From Thermomonas sp. S9 (lineage in GTDB: Bacteria; Pseudomonadota; Gammaproteobacteria; Xanthomonadales; Xanthomonadaceae), in NCBI RefSeq assembly GCF_024704365.1, contig NZ_JAJDFY010000001.1, forward strand, positions 2,461,001-2,525,000: DNA of 64,000 bases, in the 5' to 3' direction. Shown here one piece after another: positions 26,621 to 57,437 of this stretch. The notes below the pieces were generated by a model that was not told the DNA's origin, ran no database searches, and saw nothing but the letters and a program-made list of their open reading frames with translations. The first letter of the stretch is position 1. Each line of letters begins with the position of its first letter. Made by a program: the position numbers and the translations under genes.

Positions 26621-28773
26621 CTTCCGGGCATTGGGTGACGGCTGCGGCTCTCGTGGAAATCCCCGGCATGCCGCGCACGCTGCCTGCGTTGCGCAACATG
26701 GCAGTTCGGAAGGGCTGGATCTGCAGGCGGCGCGCCGGCCGCGGTGGCGGGTACGAGTACGCACTCGAAAGTCTCCCAGCGGACGTGCAGGCCCGCCTGA
26801 TCCTCCACCTCACCCAGGAGTCCACCCATGCAAGCCATCTCCCATATCCTGGCCGGCCCGGTGCTGGTGGCCACGGTCCTGCGGACGGGCAACGGCCGGC
26901 CGGCGAGTCCGGTGCGCTTCCGCGTGTATTGGTCGCAGGTGGCGGAGCGGATGGGGGCGCCGATGCCGCCGCCACAGTTCGCAAGCCGCTACGAGGCCGA
27001 GGCGATGGCGGTGGGCTGGGCCACGCAGCGGACGGGGTACGCCCCGCGCGTGGAGCGCGCCCGGCGCTGACCGAGGAGGCCCGCGCGGCGCTATGGCGCT
27101 GGTTCGACGGCCGCCCGGAGCCGGTGAAGGCCGAGGCGCGGCGCCGTCTGCTGCCGGTGCAGACGGTGCGCCGCCTGATCGACAGCGGCCTGCGGGCGCG
27201 CCAGGCCATCCGCGAGGCGGCGGCGGCGCACGGCGTGGCGGAGGCCACCCTGCGCCGCTGGTGGTACGGCGGCGGCAGCTGCCCCGGCGTGGACCACGCC
27301 GCGCCGGCCGACTACCTGCCGCTGCTGGCGCCGCGCCACCAGGGCAGCGGGCATGAGGCCGAGATGAGCCCCGAGGCCTGGGAGGTCATCAAATCCGACT
27401 ACCTGCGGCCCGAGCAGCCGGCGCTGTGGGCCTGCTATCGCCGTCTGCGCGAGGTGGCCCCGAACCACGGCTGGGTGGTGCCCAGCTACGCCACCATCGC
27501 GCGCCGGATCGAGGCGCTGCCGTGGCAGGTGCGGGTGCTGGCGCGCGAGGGGCGCGAGGCGCTGGCGCGGCGGCTGCCGCACATCACCCGCACGAAAGAC
27601 CACCTGCACGCGCTGGAGGCGGTGAACGCCGACGGCCACGTGTTCGACCTGCGCGTGCAGCTGCCCAGCGGCGGCATCGGCCGCCCGGTGCTGGTGGCCT
27701 GGCAGGACATCTACAGCGGCAAGATTCTGGCCTGGCGGGTGGCGGAGACGCTCTCCGCTCACCTGGTGCAGACCACCTTCGGCGACCTGGTGGAACGCTA
27801 CGGGATCCCCGCGCACGCCTATCTGGACAATGGCCGGGAGTTCGCCGCCAAGCTGCTGACCGGCGGCAGCAAGACCCGCTACCGCTTCCGCATCCGCGAG
27901 GAAGACCCGCTGGGGCTGTTCCCGCAGCTGGGCGTGCAGGTGCACTGGACCACACCGTACCACGGGCAGGCCAAGCCGATCGAACGCGCCTTCCGCGACC
28001 TGTGCGAGGGCATCAGCAAGCACCCGGCCGCCGCCGGCGCCTACACCGGCAACAGCCCGCTGGCCAAGCCGGCCAACTACGGCAGCCGCGCGCTGCGCTG
28101 GGAGGAGTTCACGGCGCTGGTGGAGGCCGGCATCGCCGCACACAACGCGCGCGGCGACCGCCGCACGGCCACCGCGCGCGGGCGCAGCTTCGATGCCACC
28201 TTCGCTGAGAGCTTCGCCGCCAGCGTGATCCGCCGCGCCAGCCCGGAGCAGCGCCGGCTGTGGCTGCTGGCGGCCGAGGGGCTGAAGGTGCGCCGCGAGG
28301 GGTATGTGGTGCTCGCCGGCAATGCCTACTTCGGCGAGGCGGTCAGCGCCCTGGCCGGCCAGCACGTGGTGGTGCGCTTCGACCCGGACCGGCTGGACCA
28401 GCCGGTGCACGTGTACACCCTGGACGGCGCCTACGTCGGCGCGGCCGAGCGCACCACAGCGCGGTTCGACGACATCGACACCGCGCGCGAGCACGCCCGC
28501 GCGCACCGGCAGCGCCAGCGCGCCGCGCGCGAGCTGCGCGACGCCACGGTGCGGATGGAGGCGCTGGAGGCCGTGGCCCGCCTGCCGGTGCCGGACAGCC
28601 CGCCTGGCGCGCCGCCGGCGCCGGCGGCCGTGCAGCTGGTGCACGGGCCGCGGCGTGGCCGCAGGGCGGCCGCGGCAGCGGCGCTGGACACGGCGGAGTA
28701 CGTGGCCGCCGCCGACCGCGCGGTGCTGGCGGCGCTGGCCGCACGGCCGCGGCCACTGAAGGCGATCGACTGA
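26617..28773 (+). CDS. MuA-type DDE transposase
   Basis: 718 residues. The N-terminal Mu-type DNA-binding domain (WVTAAALVEIPGMPRTLPAL, AGRGGGYEYALESLPADVQA) recognises the 13-mers at the ends. A second helical region (LTEEARAALWRWF to AEATLRRWWYGGG) precedes the RNase H-like catalytic core with the triad Asp in VNADGHVFDLRV, Asp in AYLDNGREFAAKLL and Glu in GQAKPIERAFRDL. The C-terminal beta barrel and an Arg/Ala-rich tail follow. Residues about 70-150 are oddly Gly/Arg/Pro-rich; in that stretch another frame looks like the true coding frame (see 26828-27070). Confidence 0.93.
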   Translation: MTSGHWVTAAALVEIPGMPRTLPALRNMAVRKGWICRRRAGRGGGYEYALESLPADVQARLILHLTQESTHASHLPYPGRPGAGGHGPADGQRPAGESGALPRVLVAGGGADGGADAAATVRKPLRGRGDGGGLGHAADGVRPARGARPALTEEARAALWRWFDGRPEPVKAEARRRLLPVQTVRRLIDSGLRARQAIREAAAAHGVAEATLRRWWYGGGSCPGVDHAAPADYLPLLAPRHQGSGHEAEMSPEAWEVIKSDYLRPEQPALWACYRRLREVAPNHGWVVPSYATIARRIEALPWQVRVLAREGREALARRLPHITRTKDHLHALEAVNADGHVFDLRVQLPSGGIGRPVLVAWQDIYSGKILAWRVAETLSAHLVQTTFGDLVERYGIPAHAYLDNGREFAAKLLTGGSKTRYRFRIREEDPLGLFPQLGVQVHWTTPYHGQAKPIERAFRDLCEGISKHPAAAGAYTGNSPLAKPANYGSRALRWEEFTALVEAGIAAHNARGDRRTATARGRSFDATFAESFAASVIRRASPEQRRLWLLAAEGLKVRREGYVVLAGNAYFGEAVSALAGQHVVVRFDPDRLDQPVHVYTLDGAYVGAAERTTARFDDIDTAREHARAHRQRQRAARELRDATVRMEALEAVARLPVPDSPPGAPPAPAAVQLVHGPRRGRRAAAAAALDTAEYVAAADRAVLAALAARPRPLKAID
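26828..27070 (+). CDS. Out-of-frame ORF nested in the transposase gene
   Basis: 80 codons in the +1 frame relative to the transposase, preceded by CAGGAG seven bases before its ATG and ending in TGA where the transposase frame again becomes protein-like. Nearly all its third codon positions are G or C, the signature of the true frame in this genome, whereas the transposase frame reads as Gly/Arg/Pro-rich sequence here. The product (VLRTGNGRPASPVRFRVYW, RYEAEAMAVGWATQ) is not a known family. It is either a nested gene or the result of two compensating indels within one protein. Confidence 0.5.
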   Translation: MQAISHILAGPVLVATVLRTGNGRPASPVRFRVYWSQVAERMGAPMPPPQFASRYEAEAMAVGWATQRTGYAPRVERARR

Positions 28774-31258: not shown

Positions 31259-31485
31259 ACGTGATCGGGAAAATGGAGCGCGGCCTCGCGGATATGGACG
31301 ACGCCGCGCGCGTACAGCAGCTGCTGGCAGAGGTAGCCATCGTGCTGAGCCTGCCGGATGAGTGCTGGGAGCAGTCGCCGGGCGGTCCATCGTGCCGCAT
31401 CCGCCTGGCGCGCGCGCTCGCGCGCGTGCTGGAGGACACCTGGCGCGCGGATGCGCAGGAGGGGGACGATGCCAGTGCGCCCTGA
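31255..31485 (+). CDS. Small phage protein, unknown
   Basis: 76 residues, acidic, helical (MERGLADMDDAARVQQLLAE, RIRLARALARVLEDTWRA). GGGAGGGGGC precedes the ATG at 31255, which overlaps the previous stop. No family recognised. Confidence 0.6.
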   Translation: MNVIGKMERGLADMDDAARVQQLLAEVAIVLSLPDECWEQSPGGPSCRIRLARALARVLEDTWRADAQEGDDASAP

Positions 31486-31894
31486 CCGCCGCCGCCTGCT
31501 GGCCGCCATCCACGCCGAGGCCAAGGCGCTGGGCCTGGACGAGGACACCCGCCGCGCCCTGCAGCAGCGGGTCGGCGGGCATGCCAGCTGCGCGGCGATG
31601 TCCGACCGCCAGCTGCGCGACGTGCTGGCCGAGCTGCGCCGGCTGGCCGGCAAGCCGGCGCAGCCGCCGCGCCACGCCGACGACCGCGCGCGCCTGCTGT
31701 GGCGGATCGAGCGCGACTGCGCCGCCGCCGGCTATCCGCATCCGGCCTATCCGCTGGGGATCAGCCGCAAGATGTTCGGCGCGCTCAGCCCGGCGCGCCT
31801 GGAGTGGCACGCCCCGCGCCAGCTGCGGGCGCTGATCGCCGCGCTCGCCTACGATGCCAAGCGCAGGCCGCGCCCGGCAGGCGGTGCCGCATGA
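31469..31894 (+). CDS. GemA-like regulatory protein (DUF1018)
   Basis: 141 residues. LLAAIHAEAKALGLDEDTRR, MSDRQLRDVLAELRRLAG and the C-terminal KMFGALSPARLEWHAPRQLR follow the GemA/DUF1018 pattern of Mu-like phages; Mu GemA alters host gene expression and DNA supercoiling. The ATG at 31469 has CAGGAGGGGG upstream. It lies directly before mor, the usual order. Confidence 0.8.
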   Translation: MPVRPDRRRLLAAIHAEAKALGLDEDTRRALQQRVGGHASCAAMSDRQLRDVLAELRRLAGKPAQPPRHADDRARLLWRIERDCAAAGYPHPAYPLGISRKMFGALSPARLEWHAPRQLRALIAALAYDAKRRPRPAGGAA

Positions 31895-32256
31895 GCCAGG
31901 TCATCGAGGACCTGCTCGCCGCCGGGGTCAGCGCCGACCAGGTGGAGCGGCTGGTGCGGCAGATGGGCGGGCTGTCCGTCTATCTGCCGCGCCAGTACGA
32001 CCCCGACCGCAGCGCGGTCTGCCGCGAGCTGGCCGAGACCGCTGGCGATCTGGCCGCACGCACCCTGGTGCAGCTGTACGCCGGCTGCCGAATCGTGATC
32101 CCGATGGGGCGGCAGTTCATGCGCCAGCGGCTGGCCGCCCGCATCCACGCCCTGCGCGCCGCCGGGCAGTCGGTGCCGCAGATCGCGCGGGCGCTGCATG
32201 TGCACGTGCGCCAGGTGCAGCGCCTGCTGAGCGGCGGCGCGCCAGACGCGCCATGA
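31891..32256 (+). CDS. Mor-family transcriptional activator
   Basis: 121 residues. The N-terminal dimerisation region (EDLLAAGVSADQVERLVRQM; GGLSVYLPRQYDPDR) and C-terminal helix-turn-helix (AAGQSVPQIARALHVHVRQV) are those of Mu Mor/C activators. Last gene of the early operon, followed by a strong terminator. It is expected to switch on the lysis and head/tail operons, probably at the 22-bp dyad element found before each (32327 and 40681). Confidence 0.85.
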   Translation: MSQVIEDLLAAGVSADQVERLVRQMGGLSVYLPRQYDPDRSAVCRELAETAGDLAARTLVQLYAGCRIVIPMGRQFMRQRLAARIHALRAAGQSVPQIARALHVHVRQVQRLLSGGAPDAP

Positions 32257-32293
32257 CCAGGACGCCCAGGGCGCCTGGATGAGACGATGACAC

Positions 32294-32317
32294 CCCCGGC
32301 CATGCGCCGGGGTTTTT
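32294..32317 (+). terminator. Intrinsic terminator after mor
   Basis: Stem CCCCGGC / GCCGGGG with loop CATGC followed by five T. It closes the early operon immediately before the late control element at 32327. Confidence 0.9.
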
Positions 32318-32326
32318 CGTGCGTGC

Positions 32327-32348
32327 CCGACCCGGGTCGGCCTGTTGC
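32327..32348 (+). promoter_or_regulatory. 22-bp late control element, copy 1 (before the lysis genes)
   Basis: The sequence is the 14-bp perfect palindrome CCGACCCGGGTCGG followed by CCTGTTGC. An identical 22-mer lies at 40681-40702. The dyad centre is 44.5 bases upstream of the endolysin ATG, and the same distance separates the second copy from its ATG. Mor/C of Mu bind dyads centred roughly 43 bases before the transcription start, so this is a good candidate activator site if transcription begins at or near the ATG. Confidence 0.7.
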
Positions 32349-32377
32349 CGCGCGCCGCAGCGCACCACGCTTGCGGC

Positions 32378-32878
32378 ATGTCGCTCCGCCCACGCCTGCT
32401 GCCGGCGTTCCTCACACTGTCCGCCGCCGCGCTGATCGGCGTGGCGGTACACGAGGGCTATCGTGAGGCCGCCTATCGCGATCCGGTGGGCATCCCCACC
32501 GCTGGATTCGGCTCCACCGTGCATGCGGATGGCGCCACTCCGGTGCAGCTGGGCGACCGCCTGCCGCCGGTGCGCGCCCTGATCACCCTGGGCGCGCATG
32601 TCGGGCGCACCGAGGCGGCGCTGCGGCAGTGCATCGGCCCGGTACCGCTCGCCCAGCACGAGTGGGATGCCTACGTGAGCCTGGCCTACAACGTGGGCGC
32701 AAACCGCATTTGCAGCAGCAACATCGTGCGTTTGCTGCACCAGACGCCGCCCGACTACGCCGGCGCCTGCCGCCAGATCGGGCGCTGGGTCTATGCCGGC
32801 GGGCGCCGGCTGCCGGGGCTGGAGGCGCGCCGCGCCGCCGAGATGCGCCTGTGCCTGGGCGAGGAGGCCGCACCGTGA
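32378..32878 (+). CDS. Phage endolysin, SAR-type lysozyme (T4 lysozyme-like)
   Basis: 166 residues. The N-terminal membrane segment (LPAFLTLSAAALIGVAV) looks like a signal-arrest-release helix, so export could use the host Sec system. Directly after it is the lysozyme triad in the E-8-D-5-T spacing (HEGYREAAYRDPVGIPTAGFG region). WDAYVSLAYNVG and GRRLPGLEARRAAEMRLC are conserved later motifs. There is no Shine-Dalgarno sequence; the ATG lies 29 bases after the 22-bp control element. First gene of the lysis operon. Confidence 0.9.
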   Translation: MSLRPRLLPAFLTLSAAALIGVAVHEGYREAAYRDPVGIPTAGFGSTVHADGATPVQLGDRLPPVRALITLGAHVGRTEAALRQCIGPVPLAQHEWDAYVSLAYNVGANRICSSNIVRLLHQTPPDYAGACRQIGRWVYAGGRRLPGLEARRAAEMRLCLGEEAAP

Positions 32879-33438
32879 GCCTGCCGCGCCTGCTCCCCGC
32901 CTGGCCGCTGGCCACCTATGCCGAGATCGCCGTTCTCGCCGCCGGGATCGGCGGCGGCCTGCTCGGCTGGACCGTGCGCGGCTGGCGCGATGCCGGGCAG
33001 CTCGCCGGCCTGCGCACGGAGCTGGCCCGCACCCAGGCAGGCGCCGAGCGCGTCCGCGCCGAGGCCATCGCCCGCGCCCGCGCGGCCGATGCCGCCGCCA
33101 TCACTGACCTGCAGCAGCGGCTCACCCGTGCCGCTGCCACCACCGAGGACCTGCGCCATGCCCTTGCCACTGCTACGACTGGCCGCGTGTGCCTGTCTGC
33201 CGATGCTCGCCGCGTGCTCCACCGTGCGCCCGCCTTCGCCGCCGTGCCCGCGCCTGCCGCCGGCCCTGCTGCAACCGGCCCCGCCACTGCCGCCGATCCC
33301 GGCGAGCGCGCCAGCACCGATGCCGACATCGCCGGCTGGGCGCTCGATGCCGCCGCGCTCTACGAGCAGTGCCGCGCCCGCATCGACGCCATCCGCCAGT
33401 GGGACGAGCAAGTGAACGGGGGAGCGCATGGAAGGTGA
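32875..33438 (+). CDS. Rz-like inner-membrane spanin
   Basis: 187 residues. One N-terminal membrane helix (ATYAEIAVLAAGIGGGLLGW) is followed by a long charged, Ala-rich helical segment (LAGLRTELARTQAGAERVRA; DAAAITDLQQRLTRAAATTE) typical of i-spanins, then a Pro/Ala linker. It starts at GTG overlapping the endolysin stop (GTGA). A lipoprotein gene, the expected Rz1 partner, is nested in its 3' half in another frame. Confidence 0.82.
   Translation: MSLPRLLPAWPLATYAEIAVLAAGIGGGLLGWTVRGWRDAGQLAGLRTELARTQAGAERVRAEAIARARAADAAAITDLQQRLTRAAATTEDLRHALATATTGRVCLSADARRVLHRAPAFAAVPAPAAGPAATGPATAADPGERASTDADIAGWALDAAALYEQCRARIDAIRQWDEQVNGGAHGR
33158..33415 (+). CDS. Rz1-like outer-membrane spanin lipoprotein, nested in Rz
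   Basis: 85 residues in the +1 frame of the Rz gene, entirely inside it. MPLPLLRLAACACLPMLAAC ends in a perfect lipobox LAAC at Cys20. The mature part is very Pro-rich (PPSPPCPRLPPALLQPAPPL), the hallmark of Rz1 proteins that bridge to Rz and fuse the membranes at lysis. Confidence 0.85.
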   Translation: MPLPLLRLAACACLPMLAACSTVRPPSPPCPRLPPALLQPAPPLPPIPASAPAPMPTSPAGRSMPPRSTSSAAPASTPSASGTSK

Positions 33439-33718
33439 TGTGCTGATCGGCGCGATCAACTGGCCGGCCATGCTGGCCATCGGCGGCGCGCTGCTGGGCG
33501 GCATCTTCGCGCTGCTCAAGTGGTTCGCCGGGCGGCTGCTTGCCGACATCGAGGCGCGGCTGACCCGCATCGACGACCTCGAAAACCGCTTCGAGCGGCT
33601 GATGGCCGAACTGCCGCTGCACTACCAGCGCCGCGAAGACGCCATCCGCGAATTCACCGCCATCAACACCAAGCTCGACCGCCTGTACGAGCTGCTCGCC
33701 CGAGGGGGGAACAAATGA
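33428..33718 (+). CDS. DUF2730-like membrane protein of the lysis/packaging region
   Basis: 96 residues. One membrane helix (WPAMLAIGGALLGGIFALL) is followed by an amphipathic helix (EARLTRIDDLENRFERLMAE) and a charged tail. Mu-like phages carry a DUF2730 (gp25-like) gene at this point; a holin-type role is possible but unproven. GGGGGAG precedes the ATG. Confidence 0.65.
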   Translation: MEGDVLIGAINWPAMLAIGGALLGGIFALLKWFAGRLLADIEARLTRIDDLENRFERLMAELPLHYQRREDAIREFTAINTKLDRLYELLARGGNK

Positions 33719-34041
33719 CCGAACGCCGCATCGACGCCGCCATCGACATCGCCCGCGCCGAGCGCGAGGCGCTGCGCTGGATCATGCTCACCGCGCTGTG
33801 GCACGCGCGGCCCTACGGCACCACGGAGACGGTGCTGCTGTCCTGCGCGCATGAGATCCCCATCTACGCCACTTCCGACCTTGTACGCAGGGAGCTGGGG
33901 TGGCTTGCAAGCCACAGCCTCGCAGAAATCGAGCGCGACAAATCGCCGGTGTGGGCGGCGCGGCTGACCGCCCACGGCGAAGACGTGTACGACTACCGCG
34001 CCGACGCCCCGGCGGGGCTGGCGCGCCCGCCGAGGTGGTGA
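33715..34041 (+). CDS. Mu gp26-like phage protein
   Basis: 108 residues: RAEREALRWIMLTALWHARP, TSDLVRRELGWLASHSLAEI and a C-terminal WAARLTAHGEDVYDYRADAP. The pattern suggests a winged-helix fold, as in the gp26-like proteins between DUF2730 and the small terminase in Mu-like phages. It overlaps the previous stop (ATGA). Function unknown. Confidence 0.65.
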   Translation: MTERRIDAAIDIARAEREALRWIMLTALWHARPYGTTETVLLSCAHEIPIYATSDLVRRELGWLASHSLAEIERDKSPVWAARLTAHGEDVYDYRADAPAGLARPPRW

Positions 34042-34042
34042 G

Positions 34043-34573
34043 ATGGCCCGGCGCAGCAAGGTGGACAGGCTCCCGCAAGGCCTCAAGGCGCAGCTGGAAC
34101 GGCTGCTGGCCGACCGTAGCCACGGCGGCTACGAGGCGCTGGCCGCCTGGCTCAAGGAACAGGGCTACGAGATCGGCAAGAGCAGCCTGCACCGCTACGA
34201 CCGGCGCGTGCAGGCCGTGATGCTGCGCATCAAGGCCAGCACCGAGGCGGCGCGGCTGATCGCCCAGTCCAGCCCGGACGAGGCCGACGAGCACTCGGCC
34301 GCCGTGCTGCGCATGGTGCAGTCGGCGCTGTTCGACGCCATGAGCCGGGTGGCCGAGGCGTCGGAGGAATCCGACCCTGCCGAGCAGGTCAAGGTGCTCT
34401 CGCTCGCGGCGCGGGCGATCGCCGAGGCGAGCCGCGCATCCATCGGCCAGAAGAAATGGGCCGACGAGGTGCGGTTGAGGCTCGACGAGGTGGAGCGCGT
34501 CGCGCAGAAATCGGGCAAGCGGCTCGATGCCGAGACGTTCAAGACGATCCGGGAGTGGTTGTATGGGGGGTGA
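34043..34573 (+). CDS. Small terminase subunit-like protein (DUF3486, Mu gp27-like)
   Basis: 176 residues. A helix-turn-helix N-terminus (SKVDRLPQGLKAQLERLLAD, YEALAAWLKEQGYEIGKSSL, HRYDRR) is followed by a long helical part (KVLSLAARAIAEASRASIGQ, LRLDEVERVAQKSGKRLDAE). This is the DUF3486 layout seen directly upstream of the large terminase in Mu-like phages; it is expected to recognise the pac end. Confidence 0.85.
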   Translation: MARRSKVDRLPQGLKAQLERLLADRSHGGYEALAAWLKEQGYEIGKSSLHRYDRRVQAVMLRIKASTEAARLIAQSSPDEADEHSAAVLRMVQSALFDAMSRVAEASEESDPAEQVKVLSLAARAIAEASRASIGQKKWADEVRLRLDEVERVAQKSGKRLDAETFKTIREWLYGG

Positions 34574-35323
34574 TCGCGTCGTGCCGTTTTTGAAATACGC
34601 AGGCGGCAAGCGCTGGCTGGCGCGGCGGATCATCGAGCGTCTGCCGCCGCACGTGTTACGTGGAGCCCTTTGGCGGCATGGGCGCGGTGCTGCTGGCAAA
34701 GCCCAAGAGCAAGGTCGAGGTGTGGAACGACATCGACGGCGGCCTGGCCAACGTCATGCGCTGCGTTAAATACCACCCGGACGCGCTGGCCGATGAGCTG
34801 GGGATGATGCTCGTGCACCGCACAGAGAGGCTGCGGTGGTTGCACGAACATCCGGGCGAGACGGACATCCAGCGCGCCGCGCGCTGGATCATGGTGCGAC
34901 ATTCCGGGTTTCAGGGGGGCTGGCAAAGGGTTCTTTGTCGGCCGCGCGACTGGCATTAAACCGGTCGGCACGCTCATCGAGCAGATGCGGGCGGTGGCCC
35001 GCCGTCTGTCTGGTGTGACCATCGAGCATCTGCCGTGGCAGCGCGTGTTCGACCTCTACGACGTCCCGGAGACGACGTTTTTCTGCGACCCGCCCTATGC
35101 CGATGGCGACCAGTCGATCTACGACCATGCGTTTGCGGAGGTCGACCACCGCGCCCTGCGCGAGCGGCTGCGCGCCGTCAAGGGGGGATGGATCGCAACT
35201 TATGGCGATCACCCGCTGATCCGCGATCTGTATGCCGACTGCCGCATCGAGGAGGTGCGCCGTGTGCGCGCCATCAACCAGGCGGCGCGGCGCGAATACG
35301 TGGAGCTGATCATCACGCCATGA
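34563..35323 (+). CDS. Dam-like DNA adenine methyltransferase, frameshifted as assembled
   Basis: A D12-class N6-adenine methylase. SAM-binding VPFLKYAGGKRWLARRI and VEPFGGMGAVLL (FxGxG), catalytic DPPY in TFFCDPPYADGDQSIYD. Two frame changes: an extra T near 34656 (repair gives HVYVEPFGG) and one extra G in the six-G run at 34914-34919 (repair gives GAGKGFFVGRATGIKPV). Repaired length is about 252 residues. It separates the small and large terminase genes. No restriction enzyme accompanies it, so protection of phage DNA from host nucleases is the simplest reading. Confidence 0.88.
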
Positions 35324-36669
35324 CCGCCCCCATCCTCTACCCCTACCAGCGCCGCTATCTCGCGGACAAAAGCCGCTGGAAGGCGGCGTGCTGGAGCCGC
35401 CAGACCGGCAAGACCTTCACCACCACCCTGGAGGCGGTGCTGGACGTGCTCGAGTGCCGAGGCCGAGGGCCGTATTGCCCGCTGGACGATCCTGTCCATC
35501 TCGCGCGATCGGGCGCTGGATGCCATCCGCAACGGCGCGGCGCTGCACATGCGGGCGATTGGTGCGGCCTACAAGATGATCGAGGCTGAGGACATGGGCG
35601 CCGAGGAACAGGCCGCCAGCGTGCGCCTGCCGGGCGGCAGCTACATCCGGGCGATTGCCGCCCGGCCCGAGACGGCGCGCGGCATGAGCGACAACCTGAT
35701 CCTCGACGAATTCGCCCACCACAAGGACAACCGCGCGCTGTGGCGCGCGCTGGTGCCGGTGGTGAGCCGACCCGACCTCAAGCTGCGGGTGATTTCCACA
35801 CCCAACGGCGTGGGCGACATGTTCCACGAGATCATGACGGCAGACGACGGGCTGTTTTCCCGCCACATCGTGACCATCCATGACGCGGTGGCCGACGGCC
35901 TGCCGCGCAACATCGACGAGCTGAAAAAGGCCGCCCGCGACCCGGACACCTGGGCGCAGGAATACGAGTGCACCTTCCTGGATACCGCCGGGCGCGAGTG
36001 GCTCACCTACGAGGAGATCCTTGCCACCCTGGAAGCGCCGCCCCTGCCGCCCTACGACGGGCGGCCGGTGTATGTGGGCATGGACATCGCCGCGCGGGGC
36101 GACCTCTCCGTGATCGCCGTGCTCGGAGGACGTGGGCGGCGGGGTGCTCGCCCTGCGCGAGATGCAGGTCATGCGCGGGGAGAGCTTCGCCGCGCAGCTG
36201 GCGCGCCTGGACGCCGTGATGCGGCAATACCGCGTGGCGCGGGTGGCCATCGACCAGACCGGCATGGGCGAGATGCCGGTGCAGGAGGCGCAGCGGCGGC
36301 ATGGGCAATACCGCGTTTCCGGTGTGATCTTCACGCAGGCTTCCAAGCTGGACATGGCCGTGGCGCTCAAAGACCGGATGCAGGCCAGGCGGCTGCTCAT
36401 GCCTGATGTGCATGGCAATGCACGTGATGCATTGATCGACGACCTGCGCGCCGTGCGCATGGAGCCGGGCGCGGGCGGGGTGCCCAAGCTCATGGCCGAG
36501 CGCGACGGACGGGGCCATGCCGACCGTTTTGGCGCTGGCGCTGGCCGTGGCCGCCGCCGGCGAAGGCGTGCCGGTGTATCGGTATGAGAGCGTGGCGCGC
36601 AGGAGCTTCGCGCCGCGATTCGATGATCTTGACGGGCGCGGACGCGCCCAGGAGTGGGCCGGATGGTGA
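35320..36669 (+). CDS. Large terminase subunit (Mu gp28-like), frameshifted as assembled
   Basis: DNA-packaging motor. The ATPase domain has ACWSRQTGKTFTTTLEA (Walker A) and SDNLILDEFAHHKD (Walker B); KLRVISTPNGVGDMFHE is the coupling motif. The RuvC-like nuclease starts VYVGMDIAARGDLSVIAV, and VAIDQTGMGEMP follows. Three breaks: an extra T at 35455 (repair LEAEAEGRIARW), an extra G at 36125-36126 (repair VLEDVGGGVLALRE) and one near 36505-36531 (ERDG...ALALAVAAAGEG). The start overlaps dam, and the stop at 36667 overlaps the portal start. Repaired length is about 449 residues. Confidence 0.88.
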
Positions 36670-38264
36670 CCGTGAGAAAACAGGATTTGACCGGCGAAAT
36701 CGCCCGCCCGTCGCAGACGGGGCTGCGCTCTGTCTGGCAATGGCGGCCGCTGGCCAGCATGACCCCGGCCATGGTGGCAGACGTGCTGCGCCGGGCGGCG
36801 ATGGGCGATGCGCATGACTTCCTGATCGCCGCCGACGACATCCGCGAAAAAGACTTGCACTACCGCGCCGTGCTGCAGACCCGCGCGCTGGCGGTGGCGG
36901 GCCTGCCGGTGGACATCCAGCCCTGGGACGACTCGGCCAAGGCCAAGCGCGCCGCAGATCTGGTGCAGGATGTGCTGCGAGATGGCGACTACAGCCGGAT
37001 CATCGCGCACCTCATGGACGCGGTGGCCAAGGGCTATGCCGTGGCCGAGATCATCTGGGAGACCGCTGGCGGCGTGTGGTACCCGCGCGAGATCGTGCCG
37101 CGCGAGGCGCACTGGTTCGCCTTCGACCGCGATACCGGGCGGCTGTTGCGCCTGGTGGATGGCAGCGCGGAAGGGGCCGGGATCCCGCCCTACCGCATGA
37201 TCGTCCATGCCCCGCCGCTTTCCGCCGGCATTCCGCTGCTGGGCGGGGTGGCGCGCAGCGCGCTGTGGGCCTGGGTGTTCAAATCGTATGCAATGCGCGA
37301 TTGGGCCCGGTTCTGCGAGCTGTTCGGCCAGCCCATCCGGGTGGGCAAATACCACCAGGGCGCCAGCCCCGACGACGTGGCCGTGCTCAAACAGGCGGCC
37401 TTCAGCCTCGGCAGTGATGCCGCCGCCGTGATCCCGCAGGAGATGGCGCTGGAACTCATCGAGAGCGGCAGCAAGTCCGCCAGCGCCGACCTCTACCACA
37501 CGCTGATCGACTACCTCGACCGTCAGGTCAGCAAGGCCGTGCTCGGCCAGACCATGACCACCGACGATGGATCGAGCCTGGCCCAGGCCAGGGTGCACGC
37601 CGAGGTGCGCGCCGACATCCTGCGGGCGGATGCGCGGGCCATGGCCGCCACGCTCACCCGCGACCTGATCGCGCCCATCGTGCGGCTTAACGTTGGCGAG
37701 GACGCGCCGCTGCCCATCCTCACCCTGCGCGTGGACGAGCCGGAGGACATGGCGGCGCTGGCCGATCAGGTCGTCAAGCTCACCCAGGCCGGGCTGCCGG
37801 TGCCGCAGTGGTGGGTGCGGGAGAAGTTCGGCATCCCGGCGGCGGCGGCGGGCGAGGCGGTGCTCGTTCCGGCTCAATCCGGTCAAACCGGGTTAAACCC
37901 GACTGGCGAACCATTGGCGAACCGAATGGCGAACCGCGCCGCAACTTCGGGCTCGCCAATGGCCGTGTCCGCATTCGAGGCGACGAAACACAGTGCCGAC
38001 GGCGCGCCGGACGCGCTGGACGAGCTGGCGGGCGAAGCGCTCGCGGACTGGGAGGCGCAACTTGCGCCGGCCGCCGACAGCCTGCAAGCGCTGCTCGATG
38101 AGGCGGCTGCGCGCGGAGCAAGCGCCGCCGAGCTCATCGACATCCTGGCGCAGCATCTGCCCGAGATGAATATCGACGCACTGGCCGAGCGGCTGACGCG
38201 CGCGCAGTTCGCGGCGCGGCTGGCCGGTGTGCATGGCCTGCAAGCCGCGCGGGAGAGTGAGTGA
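36663..38264 (+). CDS. Portal protein (DUF935, Mu gp29-like)
   Basis: 533 residues, intact. LTGEIARPSQTGLRSVWQWR at the N-terminus, EIVPREAHWFAFDRDTGRLL, WARFCELFGQPIRVGKYHQG, YLDRQVSKAVLGQTMTTDDG and ILRADARAMAATLTRDLIAP are DUF935 signatures. It should form the dodecameric portal through which terminase pumps DNA. The C-terminal 150 residues are Ala-rich and helical. Confidence 0.92.
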   Translation: MVTVRKQDLTGEIARPSQTGLRSVWQWRPLASMTPAMVADVLRRAAMGDAHDFLIAADDIREKDLHYRAVLQTRALAVAGLPVDIQPWDDSAKAKRAADLVQDVLRDGDYSRIIAHLMDAVAKGYAVAEIIWETAGGVWYPREIVPREAHWFAFDRDTGRLLRLVDGSAEGAGIPPYRMIVHAPPLSAGIPLLGGVARSALWAWVFKSYAMRDWARFCELFGQPIRVGKYHQGASPDDVAVLKQAAFSLGSDAAAVIPQEMALELIESGSKSASADLYHTLIDYLDRQVSKAVLGQTMTTDDGSSLAQARVHAEVRADILRADARAMAATLTRDLIAPIVRLNVGEDAPLPILTLRVDEPEDMAALADQVVKLTQAGLPVPQWWVREKFGIPAAAAGEAVLVPAQSGQTGLNPTGEPLANRMANRAATSGSPMAVSAFEATKHSADGAPDALDELAGEALADWEAQLAPAADSLQALLDEAAARGASAAELIDILAQHLPEMNIDALAERLTRAQFAARLAGVHGLQAARESE

Positions 38265-38461
38265 TGGACGAGGCCGACATCGCCGCCGAGCGCATCGAAC
38301 GCGAGATGGCGAGCCTGCTCGCTCTGCGTCGCCACACCGGCCCTGCGCCTACCGGCGCATGCCTGTGGTGCGGCGAGCCGCTCGCGCCCAGCCTGAGATG
38401 GTGCAGCGCCGAATGCCGCGACGACTGGGAGCGCAAGCATGCCCGTGCGCATCGCCGCTGA
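38264..38461 (+). CDS. Small zinc-ribbon protein
   Basis: 65 residues with a likely four-cysteine zinc site: CLWCGEPLAPSLRWCSAEC, followed by basic RDDWERKHARAHRR. It resembles small phage zinc ribbons (DksA/TraR-like or FCS-type). A GTG precedes the ATG by one codon. It overlaps the portal stop and the next gene. Function unknown. Confidence 0.65.
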   Translation: MDEADIAAERIEREMASLLALRRHTGPAPTGACLWCGEPLAPSLRWCSAECRDDWERKHARAHRR

Positions 38462-39857
38462 TCCGATTGACGCGCCCATCATGGCGCCTGCTGCGCCGGA
38501 CGAGTTCGCGCGCGCATTCCTGCTGCCGCCAGAGGAGGCGGTGCGCTACATGCAAGGGCGCGACGCGGTGCGCATCACCTACGACTGGCACGAGCTGTGG
38601 CATGACGAGCATGCGCGCGCCTTCACGGTGAGCCGCCTGGCGCGCGCCGACCTGTTGCAGTCGCTCCATGAGCAGCTCGCCCGCTCGGTGGCGGGCGACC
38701 TGACCCGCCGCGACTGGATGCGCGACGCGCGCGCTGCTCGACAGGCGGGATGGTGGGGTGAGAAGACCGTCGTCGGGCCAGAAGGCGAGGCGCGCAAGAC
38801 GCGCTTCAATCCCCGCCGCCTGCAACTCATCTACGACGTCAACACCCGCATGGCGCACGCCGCCGGGCGCTGGGAGCGCATCCAGGCGGCCAAGGCGAGC
38901 CACCCATATCTGCGCTATGTCACGCGCGCCGACGAGCGCGTGCGCCAGTCCCACCGCCCGTGGCACGGCGTGACGCTGCCGGTGGACGATCCGTGGTGGC
39001 GGACGCACTACCCGCCCTGCGGCTGGCGCTGCCGCTGCGTGGCGGTGCCGATGCGGCGCGAGGAGTATGAGGCGCGCGACGATCTGAAGAAGTCCGCGCC
39101 GCAGGAGCCGGATGTGCAATGGACCAACCCGCGCACCGGCGAAGTCCGGCGCGTTCCCTGGGCCATCGACCCAGGCTTCGGCTACAACGTGGGCGACGCC
39201 AGCCTGCGCTGGCGGGGACTGATCGATGCCGCGCGCGATAAGGTGGCAGGCTACGCCGCCGCCATCGGGGCGCATATGGCCGAGGACCTTGCGCCGCTCA
39301 TCGAGCGCGACTGGCAAGCCTGGGTGGATGCGGCGCTGGCCGGCACGGAGCGCAACCGTCTGGGGTGGCTCGGGGTGATCTCCGCGCGCGATCTGGCGCA
39401 TCTGGCGGCCGCCGGAATCGCACCGCAAAGCGCCGAGGTCATGGTGCGCCCCGGCCTGCTCTACGGACCGAAGGCCGGCCGTCATCGCGACGACGGCAAC
39501 GCGCTCGCCGATGCGCAATGGCGCGAACTGCCCAGCCTGTGGCGGCAGGCCGTGGCGCTCGTGCTCGATCTCAAGAGCGGCAAGCCATTGTGGCTGCTGC
39601 CCGGCGCGGATGCACGCACGCCGCAGTTAGCGGTGGAGGTGGATTTCGTGACAGGCCGCCCCAAGCGCGTGACCAATGCGGCCAAGTCGGCCTACCTGCA
39701 ATCGGTGGATGTGCTCAACCGGCGCCTGAAGGCCGGGGAGCTGCGCGTGTTGTGGGGGGCTGGTGATGCGCGGTGGGACTCGAACCCACACATTCTCCGC
39801 TGGCGCGGTCCCGTTACCTGTCAGGGCGCAACGCACCACCACCACGGCTCAGTATAG
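38439..39857 (+). CDS. Head morphogenesis protein (Mu gp30/F-like, SPP1 gp7 family)
   Basis: Minor head protein. LLPPEEAVRYMQGRDAVRIT at the N-terminus, LIYDVNTRMAHAAGRWERIQ, and the SPP1-gp7 core with His and Cys residues: RQSHRPWHGVTLPVDDPWW, THYPPCGWRCRCVAVPM. The C-terminal half includes LAVEVDFVTGRPKRVTNAAK. As assembled it runs to 39857, but the last 30 residues are not phage-like. One more G in the G run at 39754-39759 would end it as RVLWGGW at TGA 39764-39766, which I prefer. Confidence 0.85.
   Translation: MPVRIAADPIDAPIMAPAAPDEFARAFLLPPEEAVRYMQGRDAVRITYDWHELWHDEHARAFTVSRLARADLLQSLHEQLARSVAGDLTRRDWMRDARAARQAGWWGEKTVVGPEGEARKTRFNPRRLQLIYDVNTRMAHAAGRWERIQAAKASHPYLRYVTRADERVRQSHRPWHGVTLPVDDPWWRTHYPPCGWRCRCVAVPMRREEYEARDDLKKSAPQEPDVQWTNPRTGEVRRVPWAIDPGFGYNVGDASLRWRGLIDAARDKVAGYAAAIGAHMAEDLAPLIERDWQAWVDAALAGTERNRLGWLGVISARDLAHLAAAGIAPQSAEVMVRPGLLYGPKAGRHRDDGNALADAQWRELPSLWRQAVALVLDLKSGKPLWLLPGADARTPQLAVEVDFVTGRPKRVTNAAKSAYLQSVDVLNRRLKAGELRVLWGAGDARWDSNPHILRWRGPVTCQGATHHHHGSV
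39767..39855 (-). other. tRNA-like element (degenerate, no usable anticodon)
   Basis: The - strand contains a canonical T arm, GTGGG TTCGAGT CCCAC, followed by GCGCATC ACCA (one extra C intervenes). A 5' GGTGCGT can pair with GCGCATC, then TG and a D-loop-like CAGGTAAC with a three-pair CCC/GGG stem. The expected anticodon arm is only CCGC GCCA GCGG, a four-base loop. It is therefore a tRNA relic, a tRNA mimic, or a tRNA with assembly errors. It lies in the gap between two head genes, antisense to them. Confidence 0.4.
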
Positions 39858-39910
39858 CCTACCCGCCCGCGCGTCAAAGCGCGCCGTCTGGCTGGCATGA
39901 TGGAGGCGCC

Positions 39911-40459
39911 ATGATCAGGATCGACATCGACGACCGCGAGGTGCGCCAGGCGCTCGAGCCGCCTCCAGCAGCGCGTCTCCGACCTGACGCCCGCGATGCG
40001 GGAGATCGCCATGGAGCTCGAGGCACGGGCGCTCAACCGCTTCGAGACCGAGCGCGACCCGGCGGGCCGCCCGTGGCAGCCCCTGTCGCCCGTGACGCTG
40101 GCCAGGAAAAAAGGGCGCGGCGGCATCCTCTACCAGACCGGCGACCTGCTGGACAGCGCAACGAGCCGCGCCGGGCGCGACGTCGCCGAGGTAGGCTTCG
40201 GCCTGCGCTATGCCGTCTTCCACGAGTACGGTACGAAGAAGATGCCAAGGCGTGGCCTGCTCATGGCCGACCCCGAGGCGCGCACCCTGGGCGAGGATGA
40301 CAAGCGCGCCATCCTGAGATCATCGGCGAGCACCTTTCCGGCGGCTGAGACGCAAACCCGGCGCGGCGCTATCTGCCTATCACCGAGGCTGGCCGGATGG
40401 ACGAGCAGGCGCGCGCGCTGGTGCTGGAGGCCGTCCGGGCATTCCTGGCCGACGCCTGA
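39911..40459 (+). CDS. Virion morphogenesis protein (Mu gpG-like), frameshifted as assembled
   Basis: Starts MIRIDIDDREVRQALE; an extra C near 39960 must be removed to reach RLQQRVSDLTPAMREIAMEL. The core (AGRPWQPLSPVTLARKKGRG, LYQTGDLLDSATSRAGRDVA, GFGLRYAVFHEYGTKKMPRR) is the gpG/tail-completion family. A missing G near 40316 restores ILEIIGEHLSGG, which then meets TGA at 40346. The same frame continues after the TGA with PARRYLPITEAGRMDEQARA to 40459, which also looks like a gpG C-terminus, so either the TGA is an error or two alternative ends lie in tandem. Confidence 0.75.
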
Positions 40460-40647
40460 CCGCCAACCGCGTAGAACGCGCTGTGCGCGCATTTCATGCG
40501 CCGCCGCTACCAACGTACCACCCGGATCGACTAAAACGCGCCAGCGCCCGTTTAAACGCACTTCAAACGCGGTCACGGGGTGGCGCCATGGCCGGCCGTT
40601 GCCCATGGCGCACGTGGCCTGACCGCAACCCCCGTTGGCGCCCCTTC

Positions 40648-40669
40648 AAAGGCCGCGCCTGCGGCCTTT
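40648..40669 (+). terminator. Intrinsic terminator before the head operon
   Basis: Stem AAAGGCCGC / GCGGCCTTT with loop GCCT followed by GTCTTT. It sits 12 bases before the second copy of the 22-bp control element, mirroring the terminator-element arrangement at 32294-32348. Confidence 0.8.
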
Positions 40670-40680
40670 GTCTTTGCGGG

Positions 40681-40702
40681 CCGACCCGGGTCGGCCTGTT
40701 GC
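40681..40702 (+). promoter_or_regulatory. 22-bp late control element, copy 2 (before the head genes)
   Basis: Identical in all 22 positions to 32327-32348 and again 29 bases before an ATG without a ribosome binding site. A candidate Mor-type activator site for the structural operon. Confidence 0.7.
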
Positions 40703-40731
40703 AGGTCGCGGCGGCACCGGATTCTGGGCGC

Positions 40732-41770
40732 ATGGCCACGCCGTCCCACGTCCGTCCCCGATCCCCTGCCCGTCTGCTGGCGCGGGACGTGCTGGCCATG
40801 TCGCTGCATGCAGACCCTGATCCCCAGGGTGGGGCGGTATCCCCGCCGGAGTGGGTGCATCTCATCCCGGCGGGGGTGTTTTCCGGGCGCGACGGCCGCG
40901 GCCCCTACACCCTCGACGCCGCCGCCGTGCTGGAGGCCTTCGCCCGCCACGGCGCCGACCTGCCGATCGACTACGAGCACCAGAGCCTGACGGCCACCGA
41001 CAAGGCCGGCCCGGTGCCGGCCGCGGGCTGGATCACGGCGCTGGACATGCGCGAGGACGGCCTGTGGGCGCGCGTCACCTGGACGCCGCAGGCGGCCGCC
41101 CTGCTGGCCGCGCGCGAGTACCGCTACCTCTCGCCGGTGTTCATGCATCGCCAGGACGGCGCCATCGTCGAGCTGGTCGGCGCCGGCCTGACCCATACCC
41201 CCCAACCTGCACCTGCGCGCGGCCGCCGCGCGCCAACTGGAGGCTCATGCCGTGGATGAACTGCTGGAACGCCTGATCTACATGCTCAACCTGCCGGTCA
41301 CGGCGACCGCCGACGAGGTGGCCGCCGAGCTGCAGAAGCTGATCGACCGCCTCACTGCCGCCGAGGCCGCCGCGCAGGCGGCGCAGTCCGCGCAGCCGGC
41401 CGCGCCGGACCCGGCGCAGTGGGTGCCCATGAGCCAGCACAAAAGGGTGGCCGAGGAGCTTTCGAAGCTCCAGATGGATGTCGCCGCGGAGAAGGCCGAG
41501 GCCGCAGTGAGCGCCGCCATGAGCGCGGGCAAGCTCGCCCCGGCACTGAAAGACTGGGCCATCGCCTACGCCAGCCGCGACCCGCAGGGCTTCGCCGCCT
41601 GGGCCAAGGCCGCGCCGGTGATCGTCGCCGCCGACAAGGATGCGCATTCCGTCGCCTCGGCTGCGAGCACGGATGCCGGGCTCACCGAGGAGGATCGCAT
41701 CGCCTGCCAGCTGCTCGGCATGAGCGAGGCCGAGTTCGCCGCGCACAAGCAGGAGATCGCCCGTGCGTGA
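40732..41770 (+). CDS. Head protease/scaffold protein (Mu gpI-like), frameshifted as assembled
   Basis: The N-terminal protease domain contains WVHLIPAGVFSGRDGRGPYT and the conserved LPIDYEHQSL, then ITALDMREDGLWARVTWTP and YRYLSPVFMHRQDG. The C-terminal half is helical scaffold (ADEVAAELQKLIDRLTAAEA, KRVAEELSKLQMDVAAEKAE). The two halves are joined by removing one C from the six-C run near 41198-41203 (THTPNLHLRAAA). In Mu a separate scaffold protein is made from an internal start; LLERLIYMLNLP near 41265 could serve here. About 345 residues after repair. Confidence 0.85.
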
Positions 41771-45023: not shown

Positions 45024-46105
45024 ATGGCCCTCTACGATCTGGCAGGCAGCCTGTACGGCCCCGGCAGCGCAGGCGGCGCCACCGGAGTCGGCGTGCCCGT
45101 GGGCGGCGTGATCGCCCATCCTGGTCCACAGCCATCGGGGTATGCGCCGATGGCCGGCCAGTATCTGGACCTTGCGCAGTATCCGGCGCTGACCGGGTGA
45201 ACGATCCGCCCCTTGGCGCGGTGTTCACTACCCGCAGCGTGGGCGCGTCGATTTATTCCGTGATCAAGGCAGGGGCGCTATATGTGGCGACCGGGGGTGC
45301 CGGCGTCGTGCGCACCAGCGCGGACGTCGTGACCTGGACGACCCGCACATCGGGGACCAGCTATAACCTCTACGCCACGGCATGGTCGGGTGCGCTGCTG
45401 GTGGCGGTGGGCAACAATGGAACGCTCGTCACCAGCGCCGACGGCATCACCTGGACGGCGCGCAGCAGCGGCACGACACAGACGCTCTACAGCGTGACGT
45501 GGTCGTCGGCGCGTGGGCTGTTCGTGGCCGTGGGCAGCGCAGGAACGCTCATCACCAGCCCCGATGGCATCACCTGGACGGCGCGCAGCAGCGGCACGAC
45601 GCAGACGCTCAACAGCGTGGTGTGGGTGGCGGGCCTGGGGCTGTTCGTGGCCGTGGGCAGCGCAGGAACGCTCATCACCAGCCCCGATGGCATCACCTGG
45701 ACGGCGCGTAGCAGCGGCACGACGCAGACGCTGCAGGCCATCGCCTGGTCGGGGAGCGAGCTGATGGCGGTGGGGCAAAACGTGGCGTGTGTCAGCCCCG
45801 ACGGCATCACCTGGACGGCGCGCAGTCATACGCTGGGGTACATGACCCTGCTGACCTATGCGGACGGGCGCTGGGTGGCTGGCGTCAGCATGGCGTACAC
45901 CGCCAGCAGCGACAGCGGTATCACATGGTCACTGCCGATGTCGGTGGGCGGCACCGTCGCCTACCAGCCTCTCGTGGAGGAGGCGATGGTCTGGCTGCCG
46001 TCAGGCACATCGCTGATTGGACTGCCGCGCTCGCGGCCGGGCTACAGGTATCTGCCGGCGCTGTCTGCAGCGCCAGGCACCACGTATTACATGCGGGTGG
46101 CGTGA
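45024..46105 (+). CDS. Tail-associated beta-propeller protein, frameshifted as assembled
   Basis: About 360 residues. A collar-like N-terminus (VGVPVGGVIAHPGPQPSGYA, GQYLDLAQYPALTG) is joined to the body by restoring one base at about 45196. The body has four or more tandem blades of about 41 residues, each reading SPDGITWTARSSGTTQTL followed by a hydrophobic strand and GLFVAVGSAGTLIT. This is the pattern of BNR/YCF48-like beta-propellers, often used for carbohydrate or surface binding. Receptor binding or tail decoration is inferred. Confidence 0.72.
45443..45811 (+). repeat. Tandem DNA repeats of 123 bp encoding propeller blades
   Basis: The GGCATCACCTGGACGGCGCG motif recurs at 45443, 45566, 45689 and 45803, spaced 123, 123 and 114 bases. 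The second and third full units are nearly identical at DNA level, including GTGGGCAGCGCAGGAACGCT, so they were duplicated recently and could change copy number by recombination. Confidence 0.88.
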
Positions 46106-46503
46106 TGGCTGTGTACAGCTACGATGATTATGGATTCCTGTCCGACCAGCCGATCGCGGGCCGCCAGACGCCCATCGCCCCACCACCGGCCCCGTGGCCG
46201 GACGGACAGCGCCCCAATTGGACCGGCGTGGAATGGACCATGCTCGCCTACCCGCCGCCGCCAGCGCCCGTCCCGGTGCCGGATGCCGTCACGCCGCGCC
46301 AGATCCGGCAGGCGCTGAACCGTGCTGGGCTGCGGGATGCGGTGGAGGCGGCGGTCGCCGCGGCAGGCCGCGACGTGCAGGACTGGTGGGAGTTCGCACT
46401 GACCATCGAGCGCGCGCACCCCATGGTGGAGGCTATGCTGCCAGCGCTCGGGCTGACGCCGGCGCAGGCGGATGACATCTTCAGGCTTGCGGGGACGCTA
46501 TGA
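46105..46503 (+). CDS. Phage tail-region protein, unknown
   Basis: 132 residues: a Pro-rich N-terminal half (IAPPPAPWPDGQRPNWTGVE) and a helical C-terminal domain (VTPRQIRQALNRAGLRDAVE, AGRDVQDWWEFALTIERAHP). The C-terminal pattern is frequent in phage tail-fibre-adjacent proteins. The start overlaps the propeller stop (TGATG), so it probably acts with that protein. Confidence 0.68.
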   Translation: MAVYSYDDYGFLSDQPIAGRQTPIAPPPAPWPDGQRPNWTGVEWTMLAYPPPPAPVPVPDAVTPRQIRQALNRAGLRDAVEAAVAAAGRDVQDWWEFALTIERAHPMVEAMLPALGLTPAQADDIFRLAGTL

Positions 46504-46784
46504 GCACACCCTTTGCAACGCGCGTCCAGCACCTGCTCATCGCGATGGATCAGCTGCTGTGGGTGGCGCTCACGCTGGGCGATGGTCTGCCGGACGAAAC
46601 AGTCAGCGCGGCTGCCTGGCGGATGGAGCGCCAAAGGAAGCTCGCCGGCCGCATCCTGCGCCCGCTGATCGACATGATCTTCCGGCCGATCGAGCGTGAC
46701 CATTGCCGCGCCAGCTTCGAGGCCGAGTGCCGGCGCAGCCAGCCACCACACATCTACGACACGGAGAGCACATTGCATGACTGA
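46500..46784 (+). CDS. Phage protein, unknown
   Basis: 94 residues: VQHLLIAMDQLLWVALTLGD, GLPDETVSAAAWRMERQRK, then LRPLIDMIFRPIERDHCRAS. Two hydrophobic patches and a Cys/His/Arg-rich tail. The GMPDET-like motif recurs in unannotated phage proteins. Coupled to its neighbours by short overlaps. Confidence 0.6.
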   Translation: MSTPFATRVQHLLIAMDQLLWVALTLGDGLPDETVSAAAWRMERQRKLAGRILRPLIDMIFRPIERDHCRASFEAECRRSQPPHIYDTESTLHD

Positions 46785-47133
46785 CATCGCCCCCGTCACC
46801 GTCCGTGACCTGCCCGCGTTCCTGGCGGCCATCGAGCCGATCGCGCGCGAGCTTGCCAGCGGCGATATCGCTGGCGCGCTGCTGCGCCATGCCGATGCGG
46901 TGATCGAGGCCACCGCCATCGGCGCGGGCGTCGATCGTGCCTGGCTGGAGGCGCAGCAGACCGATGTGCTGGTGGAACTCGCGGCGAAGGTGCTGGAGGT
47001 GAACGCGGATTTTTTCGCGCACCGCGTGCTGCCGGCGCTCCATCAGGCCGCCGATCGCCTGGCGCTGATCGCCTCTGGTGGCACGTATGGATCGCCCGGC
47101 TCGTCGGAGCAGGCTTCGGCTACCGCGACGTAA
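46777..47133 (+). CDS. Tail assembly chaperone-like protein (zero-frame product)
   Basis: 118 residues: TVRDLPAFLAAIEPIARELA, DIAGALLRHADAVIEATAIG, VLVELAAKVLEVNADFFAHR. This is the pattern of DUF6631-type proteins just upstream of the tape measure in Mu-like siphophages. A TTTTTTC heptamer at 47010-47016 is in phase for -1 slippage, and the -1 frame stays open to 47288. A G/GT-like pair (short and frameshift-extended form) is therefore likely. The zero-frame end is Ser/Thr/Ala-rich. Confidence 0.68.
   Translation: MTDIAPVTVRDLPAFLAAIEPIARELASGDIAGALLRHADAVIEATAIGAGVDRAWLEAQQTDVLVELAAKVLEVNADFFAHRVLPALHQAADRLALIASGGTYGSPGSSEQASATAT
47010..47016 (+). promoter_or_regulatory. Candidate -1 ribosomal slippery site T TTT TTC
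   Basis: Heptamer of the X-XXY-YYZ type, in the correct phase (zero-frame codons TTT TTC) within the chaperone gene. After a -1 slip the frame has no stop for 270 bases and ends at 47288. Confidence 0.5.
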
Positions 47134-47288
47134 TGGCCATGCCGTGGCCGCAGGCGCGGGACTTTCTCGACGCGGCGGCCCGGCTGGAGCGCGAACGGCT
47201 GATGCAGTCGGCGGTGGCCGCCCGCGCGGCGCAGGCCGACGAGAAGGGGTGGAAGGCGTGGGTGAAGGAGATGTGCCGTGGCGAGTGA
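47133..47288 (+). CDS. Tail chaperone extension / small tail protein
   Basis: 51 codons from the ATG overlapping the preceding TAA (TAATG): MAMPWPQARDFLDAAARLER, WKAWVKEMCRGE. The same frame is open upstream and protein-like from about 47073 (LWWHVWIARLVGAGFGYRDV), a sequence style typical of the T part of tail chaperone fusions. It is therefore probably made mainly as the C-terminal part of a -1 frameshift product, possibly also on its own. Confidence 0.55.
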   Translation: MAMPWPQARDFLDAAARLERERLMQSAVAARAAQADEKGWKAWVKEMCRGE

Positions 47289-47294
47289 GCGCCT

Positions 47295-50937: not shown

Positions 50938-50940
50938 GCC

Positions 50941-54265: not shown

Positions 54266-54267
54266 CC

Positions 54268-56974: not shown

Positions 56975-57018
56975 CCCCACCGCGAATCCGGTTTGAACGC
57001 ACCGCAAGGAGACATGTC

Positions 57019-57369: not shown

Positions 57370-57388
57370 CCAAAATGCGGGTGTACCC

Positions 57389-57437
57389 CTGTCTCAAATC
57401 AGGTGCAAAACTGTCTCAAATCAGGTGCGCAATTACA
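57389..57437 (-). promoter_or_regulatory. Prophage right end with two transposase-binding sites (R1, R2)
   Basis: The 13-mer CTGTCTCAAATCA occurs at 57389-57401 (R2) and 57411-57423 (R1) in the same orientation, 22 bases apart. The 18-base block CTGTCTCAAATCAGGTGC is identical in both. R1 lies 14 bases from the terminus (...AATTACA). This is the reverse complement of L1 with identical spacing to the end. Confidence 0.92.

Follow-up and report, generated by a model that had tools for sequence, protein, structure and literature searches.

Late transcription of bacteriophage Mu is a classic activator system, and it is known in detail for this one phage. As described in parts of PMC4390567 and PMC4287176, the Mor site of the Mu promoter Pm is centred at -43.5 and consists of two 5-bp repeats around a G/C-rich hexamer; Pm has a -10 element and no -35 element, and the Mor dimer replaces the -35 contact. 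Part of PMC4287176 also places sites for the activator C in Plys, PI, PP and Pmom. Here we describe a related arrangement in a stretch of 64,000 nucleotides from Thermomonas sp. S9 (contig NZ_JAJDFY010000001.1, positions 2,461,001 to 2,525,000), called the window below. A Mu-like prophage in the window carries an identical 22-mer with dyad symmetry before both of its late operons, which begin with an endolysin gene (lys) and with the gene for the Mu-like protease/scaffold I. As at Mu Pm, there is a Mor-family activator, a 16-bp element (here GCCGA-CCCGGG-TCGGC), a centre at about -44 and a -10 without a -35. Unlike the Mu site, the window sites precede late and not middle operons, their half-site is a different one, and the predicted transcription start (+1) coincides with the start codon. 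Judging from the sequence, it is likely that the two elements are operators of Mor/C-activated late promoters whose mRNA would start at the AUG. The features that matter for this reading are listed here by their positions in the window.

31891..32256, + strand: gene of the Mor/C-family activator, helix-turn-helix (HTH) Arg in HVRQVQRLL (PF08765 Mor, E 6.4e-10; phrog_836 late transcriptional activator, E 1.5e-19)
32326..32341, + strand: predicted activator site 1, 16-bp CCCGA-CCCGGG-TCGGC, centre at -44.5 from the A of the lys ATG
32327..32348, + strand: conserved 22-mer, copy 1 (dyad plus CCTGTTGC)
32366..32371, + strand: -10-like hexamer CACGCT (A-11 and T-7 relative to the A of the lys ATG)
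32378..32878, + strand: endolysin (phage lysozyme), which opens the first late operon, with a leaderless start predicted at A32378 (PF00959, E 3.2e-31; no Shine-Dalgarno sequence, SD)
40680..40695, + strand: predicted activator site 2, 16-bp GCCGA-CCCGGG-TCGGC, centre at -44.5 from the A of the I ATG
40681..40702, + strand: conserved 22-mer, copy 2
40720..40725, + strand: -10-like hexamer GATTCT (A-11 and T-7 relative to the A of the I ATG)
40732..41259, + strand: Mu-like I protease/scaffold, which opens the second late operon, with a leaderless start predicted at A40732 (PF10123, E 3.1e-45; no SD)

The 22-mer CCGACCCGGGTCGGCCTGTTGC lies at 32327-32348 (+) and 40681-40702 (+), and the window holds no other match at up to three mismatches. 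A chance repeat can be ruled out, since two exact copies are found here and none appeared in 100 shuffles of the sequence (0/100). Each copy is separated from its ATG by exactly 29 bases (32349-32377 before the ATG at 32378, 40703-40731 before the ATG at 40732), and the dyad centre is at -44.5 from the A at both late starts. The 16-bp dyad is made of 5-bp inverted repeats around a G/C-rich hexamer, with half-site pairing of 5/5 at I and 4/5 at lys, and the sequences flanking the two copies are unlike each other. No sigma-70 promoter with a -35 was found in 31800-41300, nor did either late ATG have an SD match of 4 bases in front of it. The Mor-like protein scores 39.4 bits against PF08765 (curated cut-off 24.9) and is the only Mor-family open reading frame (ORF) found in the window; in position, its gene corresponds to C of Mu. 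A tblastn search of phage records with this protein gave no match, and a PDB sequence search returned two matches only (E 0.36 and 0.73).

An original prediction for this stretch had stated that the element occurs twice, 29 bases before each ATG and with its centre 44.5 bases from the A. It had further named endolysin and protease/scaffold as the two genes, both starting without an SD, placed a Mor-family gene directly upstream, and noted that the dyad centre is close to the position bound by Mor and C of Mu. All of this is borne out: the first points by the coordinates and the two window matches, the gene identities by PF00959, PF10123 and PF08765 (E 6.4e-10, above the curated cut-off), the lack of an SD by the missing 4-base match, and the last point by the -43.5 of Mu Pm given in part of PMC4390567. 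The expectation that the 22-mer would precede the same two operons in relatives also proved right. It is exact at both genes, with the 29-base spacing kept, in the prophage of T. haemolytica DSM 13605 (L024; loci are given here by L or G numbers), the one close relative with both operons visible. The Mor protein of that prophage is 77% identical to the window Mor, gemA precedes mor there too, some 0.8 kb of other sequence separates mor from lys, and the protease N-terminus MATPS starts at the equivalent ATG. The same sites as in L024 are carried by G051 and by viral contig L020. Two viral contigs from one metagenome show one operon each: L015 has a single site at lys (2 changes, 29-base spacing) and L017 a single site at I (1 change, 30-base spacing), with the -10 bases of L017 displaced by the same one base as the spacing. 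A scan of viral contigs with the 19-base core found three records only (L020, L015 and L017), and the 14-bp core of site 1 also occurs in L014/L020 and L015.

More distant Mu-like phages of many hosts were gathered via portal and protease searches, and named phages were added. All 10 Mor-like proteins from distant phages, Mu C included, score above the Pfam Mor cut-off. At least ten other Mu-like phages have dyads of their own at both late operons, that is, many phages and not all. The dyads before the two late operons are TAAACGGGTTTA/TAAACCCGTTTA in L019, TGAACTGATTCA/TGAACCCGTTCA in L016, TAACGTGAGTTA/TAACGGGTGTTA in L028 and CCTGAAGGGCTTCAGG/CCTGAACTCCTTCAGG in B23, while TGAAGCGCTTCA in L032 and TTGAACCCCTTCC in JBD30 are found at both. 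The idea of an arrangement unique to the window phage was rejected because other phages have other dyads at the same two operons. We compared the lys and I regions of 26 phages by a permutation test in which every start codon after mor competes with every in-frame start of I. Own lys/I pairs had a mean likeness of 15.5 of 25 positions, against 13.3 for crossed pairs, and the sum of own-pair scores was greater than in all of 100,000 permutations.

For the position of the start point we took I starts blind, choosing the ATG that lies furthest 5' in the frame near the domain, and counted the A of this ATG as +1. I was found in 42 loci; six of them (L034, L088, L093, L018, L078 and L017) were excluded for want of an ATG candidate, as near duplicates or because of a contig edge, which gives 36 starts. 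L066 stands outside the counts, as do the near copies L014, L024, L027, L029 and L031, and the window locus (WIN) and L020, which are related, are both counted. A later set of 29 loci gave 24 I starts after five were dropped for want of an ATG candidate. As controls served 213 genes, the other genes of seven named phages. Among the 36 I starts, 64% have A at -11, 64% have T at -7 and 83% have C at -1, and G occupies -6 in 67% and -5 in 69%. A at -11 and T at -7 are the key positions expected of a sigma-70 -10 element, and so they point to a transcription start at the A of the ATG. We defined a leaderless signature as A/T at -11/-7 or -12/-8, C at -1 and no SD. It is present at 24 of the 36 I starts and at none of the 213 control genes; of 10,159 other ATGs in the loci of these starts, 133 have it. 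Signature and dyad occur together at 17/36 I starts and 19/10,159 other ATGs. In the later set, 8 of 24 starts have the signature, all eight with the dyad. An SD of 4 bases is missing from 32/36 I starts and present in 169/213 of the other genes. Dyad symmetry summed over the 36 starts peaks at -44.5 among 119 centres (z 3.9), and over the 24 later starts at -43.5 among 76 centres (z 3.0). First-late-gene starts have the signature in 10 of 11 cases, a count that is not blind because these starts were chosen by eye after the dyads had been seen.

The sequence of the site follows the HTH of the activator. In 15 phages, picked for a dyad read at both operons and with centres set by eye (WIN/L020 and L055/L057 are non-independent pairs among them), the I sites are the more alike, the more identical the HTH parts of Mor are (r 0.50, P 0.0004; partial Mantel r 0.52, P 1e-4). 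Identity of the adjoining protease shows no such relation to the sites (r -0.03). Where the recognition helix has Arg, position 5 of the half-site, counted from the centre, is G (12/12 phages); where it has Gln, Ile or Met, that position is A (3/3). This rule was noticed in these same data. The window belongs to the Arg/G group (HVRQVQRLL; CCGACC). Outside the 15, judged by eye, the rule fits L036 and L056 (Arg, G) as well as L053, L054, L075 and L091 (not Arg, not G), and L085 is ambiguous. No clear dyad could be seen by eye at I in L051, L083, L086, L090 and Mu.

These observations suggest the following mechanism. The Mor/C-family protein (31891-32256) would bind as a dimer to each of the 16-bp dyads, with its centre 44.5 bp before +1. 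The bound dimer would stand in for the -35 contact and recruit sigma-70 RNA polymerase to a promoter with a weak -10 and no recognisable -35. Transcription would begin at the A of the ATG of endolysin and of protease I; with such a start, the endolysin mRNA and the protease/head mRNA would be leaderless, and no SD would be needed. Binding by the window protein, activation, the exact start point and leaderless translation are all parts of the proposal that we infer from sequence patterns. Terminators just upstream of the sites could separate the activator transcript from the late operons. An intrinsic terminator had been predicted before each copy; the first has both stem and T-run, while the second, although its stem is strong, has a poor T tract.

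32294..32312, + strand: intrinsic terminator (GC stem of 7 pairs, then TTTTT), lying after the activator gene and before the first late promoter
40647..40670, + strand: terminator-like stem-loop upstream of the second late promoter, strong in its stem and weak in its T tract (RNA fold -21.3 kcal/mol, z -3.07)
31358..31894, + strand: gemA-like ORF directly 5' of the activator gene (PF06252 GemA, E 5.8e-13; these are ORF bounds, with the true start somewhere inside)

A terminator scan listed six candidates (2.6 expected), with 32294-32312 as the sole one on the + strand. The stem at 40647-40670 was not listed by this consensus scan; its T. haemolytica counterpart is a stem plus T7.

The original prediction of a Mor-driven late regulon with near-leaderless transcripts is thus supported at the level of sequence, by the same two operons in T. 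haemolytica and by the site tracking the Mor HTH. It can be sharpened to a start at the A or one nucleotide before it, with -10 bases at -11/-7. Several findings weigh against this interpretation, however. The -10 hexamers are poor (CACGCT 2/6, GATTCT 3/6). The signature fails at 12/36 and 16/24 blind starts; in some of these the 5'-most ATG is perhaps not the true start, but Mu, martha 12B12 and MuM16-2 are genuine failures. With 14 hand-picked first-late starts, the centre at -44.5 is only tied second (z 2.5) and -23.0 comes first. In the deposited record of D3112 (L088), the signature ATG (11927) does not share the frame of the I ORF. In the permutation data, the own pair of 19 of 26 phages is equalled or exceeded by one or more crossed pairs (row test), the own-pair excess is due to about 10 phages, others, Mu among them, show none, and the best own pair of L016, L028 and L075 is not a dyad pair. 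Finally, the first dyad of L055 and L057 sits on the stop codon of mor, and the gene that follows has an SD-containing leader. The permutation test missed this dyad because it overlaps the stop codon; in these two phages, only I looks leaderless. The dyad and the -10 bases, as two rulers, agree on +1, but the rule is clearly not universal.

Two observations concern the I genes of other phages. In DMS3 (L093), the annotated I start lies 42 codons 3' of an in-frame ATG at 11926 that adjoins the dyad, which suggests a corrected gene start that would lengthen I of DMS3 by about 42 codons. In martha 12B12 (L086), MuM16-2 (L090) and L128, a strong SD followed by ATG-TAA (a start, then a stop) is found just upstream of I.

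Alternatively, the late promoters could be activated by Mor/C and have their +1 elsewhere, upstream or downstream of the ATG, with short leaders as in Mu and with the absence of an SD reflecting weak translation. Mu itself, which shows no signature at I nor, by reading, at lys, fits this explanation, and so do L055 and L057 with their SD-containing leader before the first late gene. Yet both rulers, the dyad centre (-44.5 here, -43.5 at Mu Pm) and the -10 bases (-11/-7), place +1 at the A of the ATG. A start elsewhere is also at odds with the C at -1 in 83% of I starts and with the contrast in SD content between I starts and other genes. We therefore regard displaced start points as unlikely.

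It is much less probable still that the dyads are operators for another protein (a phage repressor or a host factor) or an RNA element such as part of a terminator or attenuator. A perfect 14-bp palindrome directly after a terminator would suit either, but it has no loop and no T-run, and site similarity tracks the Mor HTH and not the adjoining protease. In addition, the element is found in the window only before the two late operons. A recent duplication or a recombination scar without function, to which the exact identity of the two copies would lend itself, is hardly credible, given that their flanks differ, that both copies are exact in T. haemolytica despite Mor at 77% identity, and that in other phages these two places are occupied by different dyads.

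Operators of Mor/C-activated promoters are thus the preferred reading for the window, and the scheme is predicted not to be special to this phage; we expect it in JBD30 and DMS3 too. Among the Mu-like phages of Pseudomonadota, a large part, these two included, probably start their head operons, and often their lysis operons, at the start codon from Mor/C-activated promoters. DNA recognition would have diversified among them (helix Arg or not, with G or not-G at position 5), and the geometry of dyad, -10 and AUG would have remained fixed. If this is true, late promoters of many unstudied Mu-like phages can be located together with the protein that reads them and the base that is read, and their first late mRNAs would often be without a leader. 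The phages would also provide a natural set of activator-site pairs of differing specificity. It could then be asked why a phage abandons SD-driven initiation for its head genes.

The Mor/C-family proteins showed a further feature. A Qxx(L/M)F motif is found within the last 14 residues of 18 of 31 Mor/C-family ORFs, compared with 3 of 5381 other ORFs of the same loci. Carriers are L016, L019, L032, L036, L050 (Mu C), L054, L056, L057, L075, L076, L080, L084, L086, L089, L090 and L091 and the near copies L088 and L093; the window Mor is without it. The motif resembles the binding motif for the beta sliding clamp and would hint at clamp-coupled late transcription. No clamp link of Mu C was found in the open-access literature searched.

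A scan of genome contigs gave four loci. The element is present in 2 of 25 Thermomonas genomes; of the 8 genomes of this genus listed in the search for Mor, the ones with a match are these same two. In the genome of the window, the six matches to the element represent two prophages with 4 sites, because the contig ends overlap: a third prophage copy was rejected as an artefact of this overlap. Bases 1-24.9 kb and the last 24.9 kb of contig 1 are one locus, an untrimmed circular overlap with many indels and 96-98.5% identity. The late regions of the two host prophages are 99.9% identical over 12 kb (window 45351-57437, within a compared stretch of 26797-57437), but window 26797-28366 (about 1.6 kb) is only 89% identical to the second prophage, a contrast that may reflect recent exchange. 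The frames of tail S and protease I are broken in the window copy (39773-41770), and the I frame ends early (41259). Since the copies differ by single homopolymer bases, this suggests sequencing noise.

The original prediction had called the arrangement apparently undescribed for this phage group. The promoter logic, like the activator family, is known from Mu; what is apparently undescribed is the leaderless placement, together with how widely it occurs. We found no description of leaderless late promoters or mapped starts in Mu-like phages in the open-access literature searched, where older work on D3112 transcription (Bidnenko et al. 2000) lies outside, and the available parts of PMC4390567, PMC4287176, PMC4378225 and PMC9239132 do not describe leaderless Mu-like late promoters. 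Promoters of the D3112 group have been predicted by program (PMC4378225), and the word "leader" is absent from the available part of that paper. The Casadabanviruses (JBD30, DMS3 and D3112) resemble the window in having a common dyad, TTGAACCCCTTC, and GGCGGC directly before the ATG at both operons; they differ in half-site and HTH and, for D3112, in the signature ATG that is out of frame in the record. With the C-dependent Plys and PI of Mu, the window shares an activator gene directly 5' of the lysis gene and the placing of promoters, predicted ones in the window, ahead of lys and I. The leaderless signature is missing from the Mu starts, and in the window only two sites are found. The term leaderless is reportedly used for other phages, for example AR9 (PMC5312081). 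A known case is the cI mRNA of lambda, which is leaderless, starts at the AUG and has no SD. Compared with lambda cI, the window case would concern the first genes of activator-dependent late operons, and would do so across many phages.

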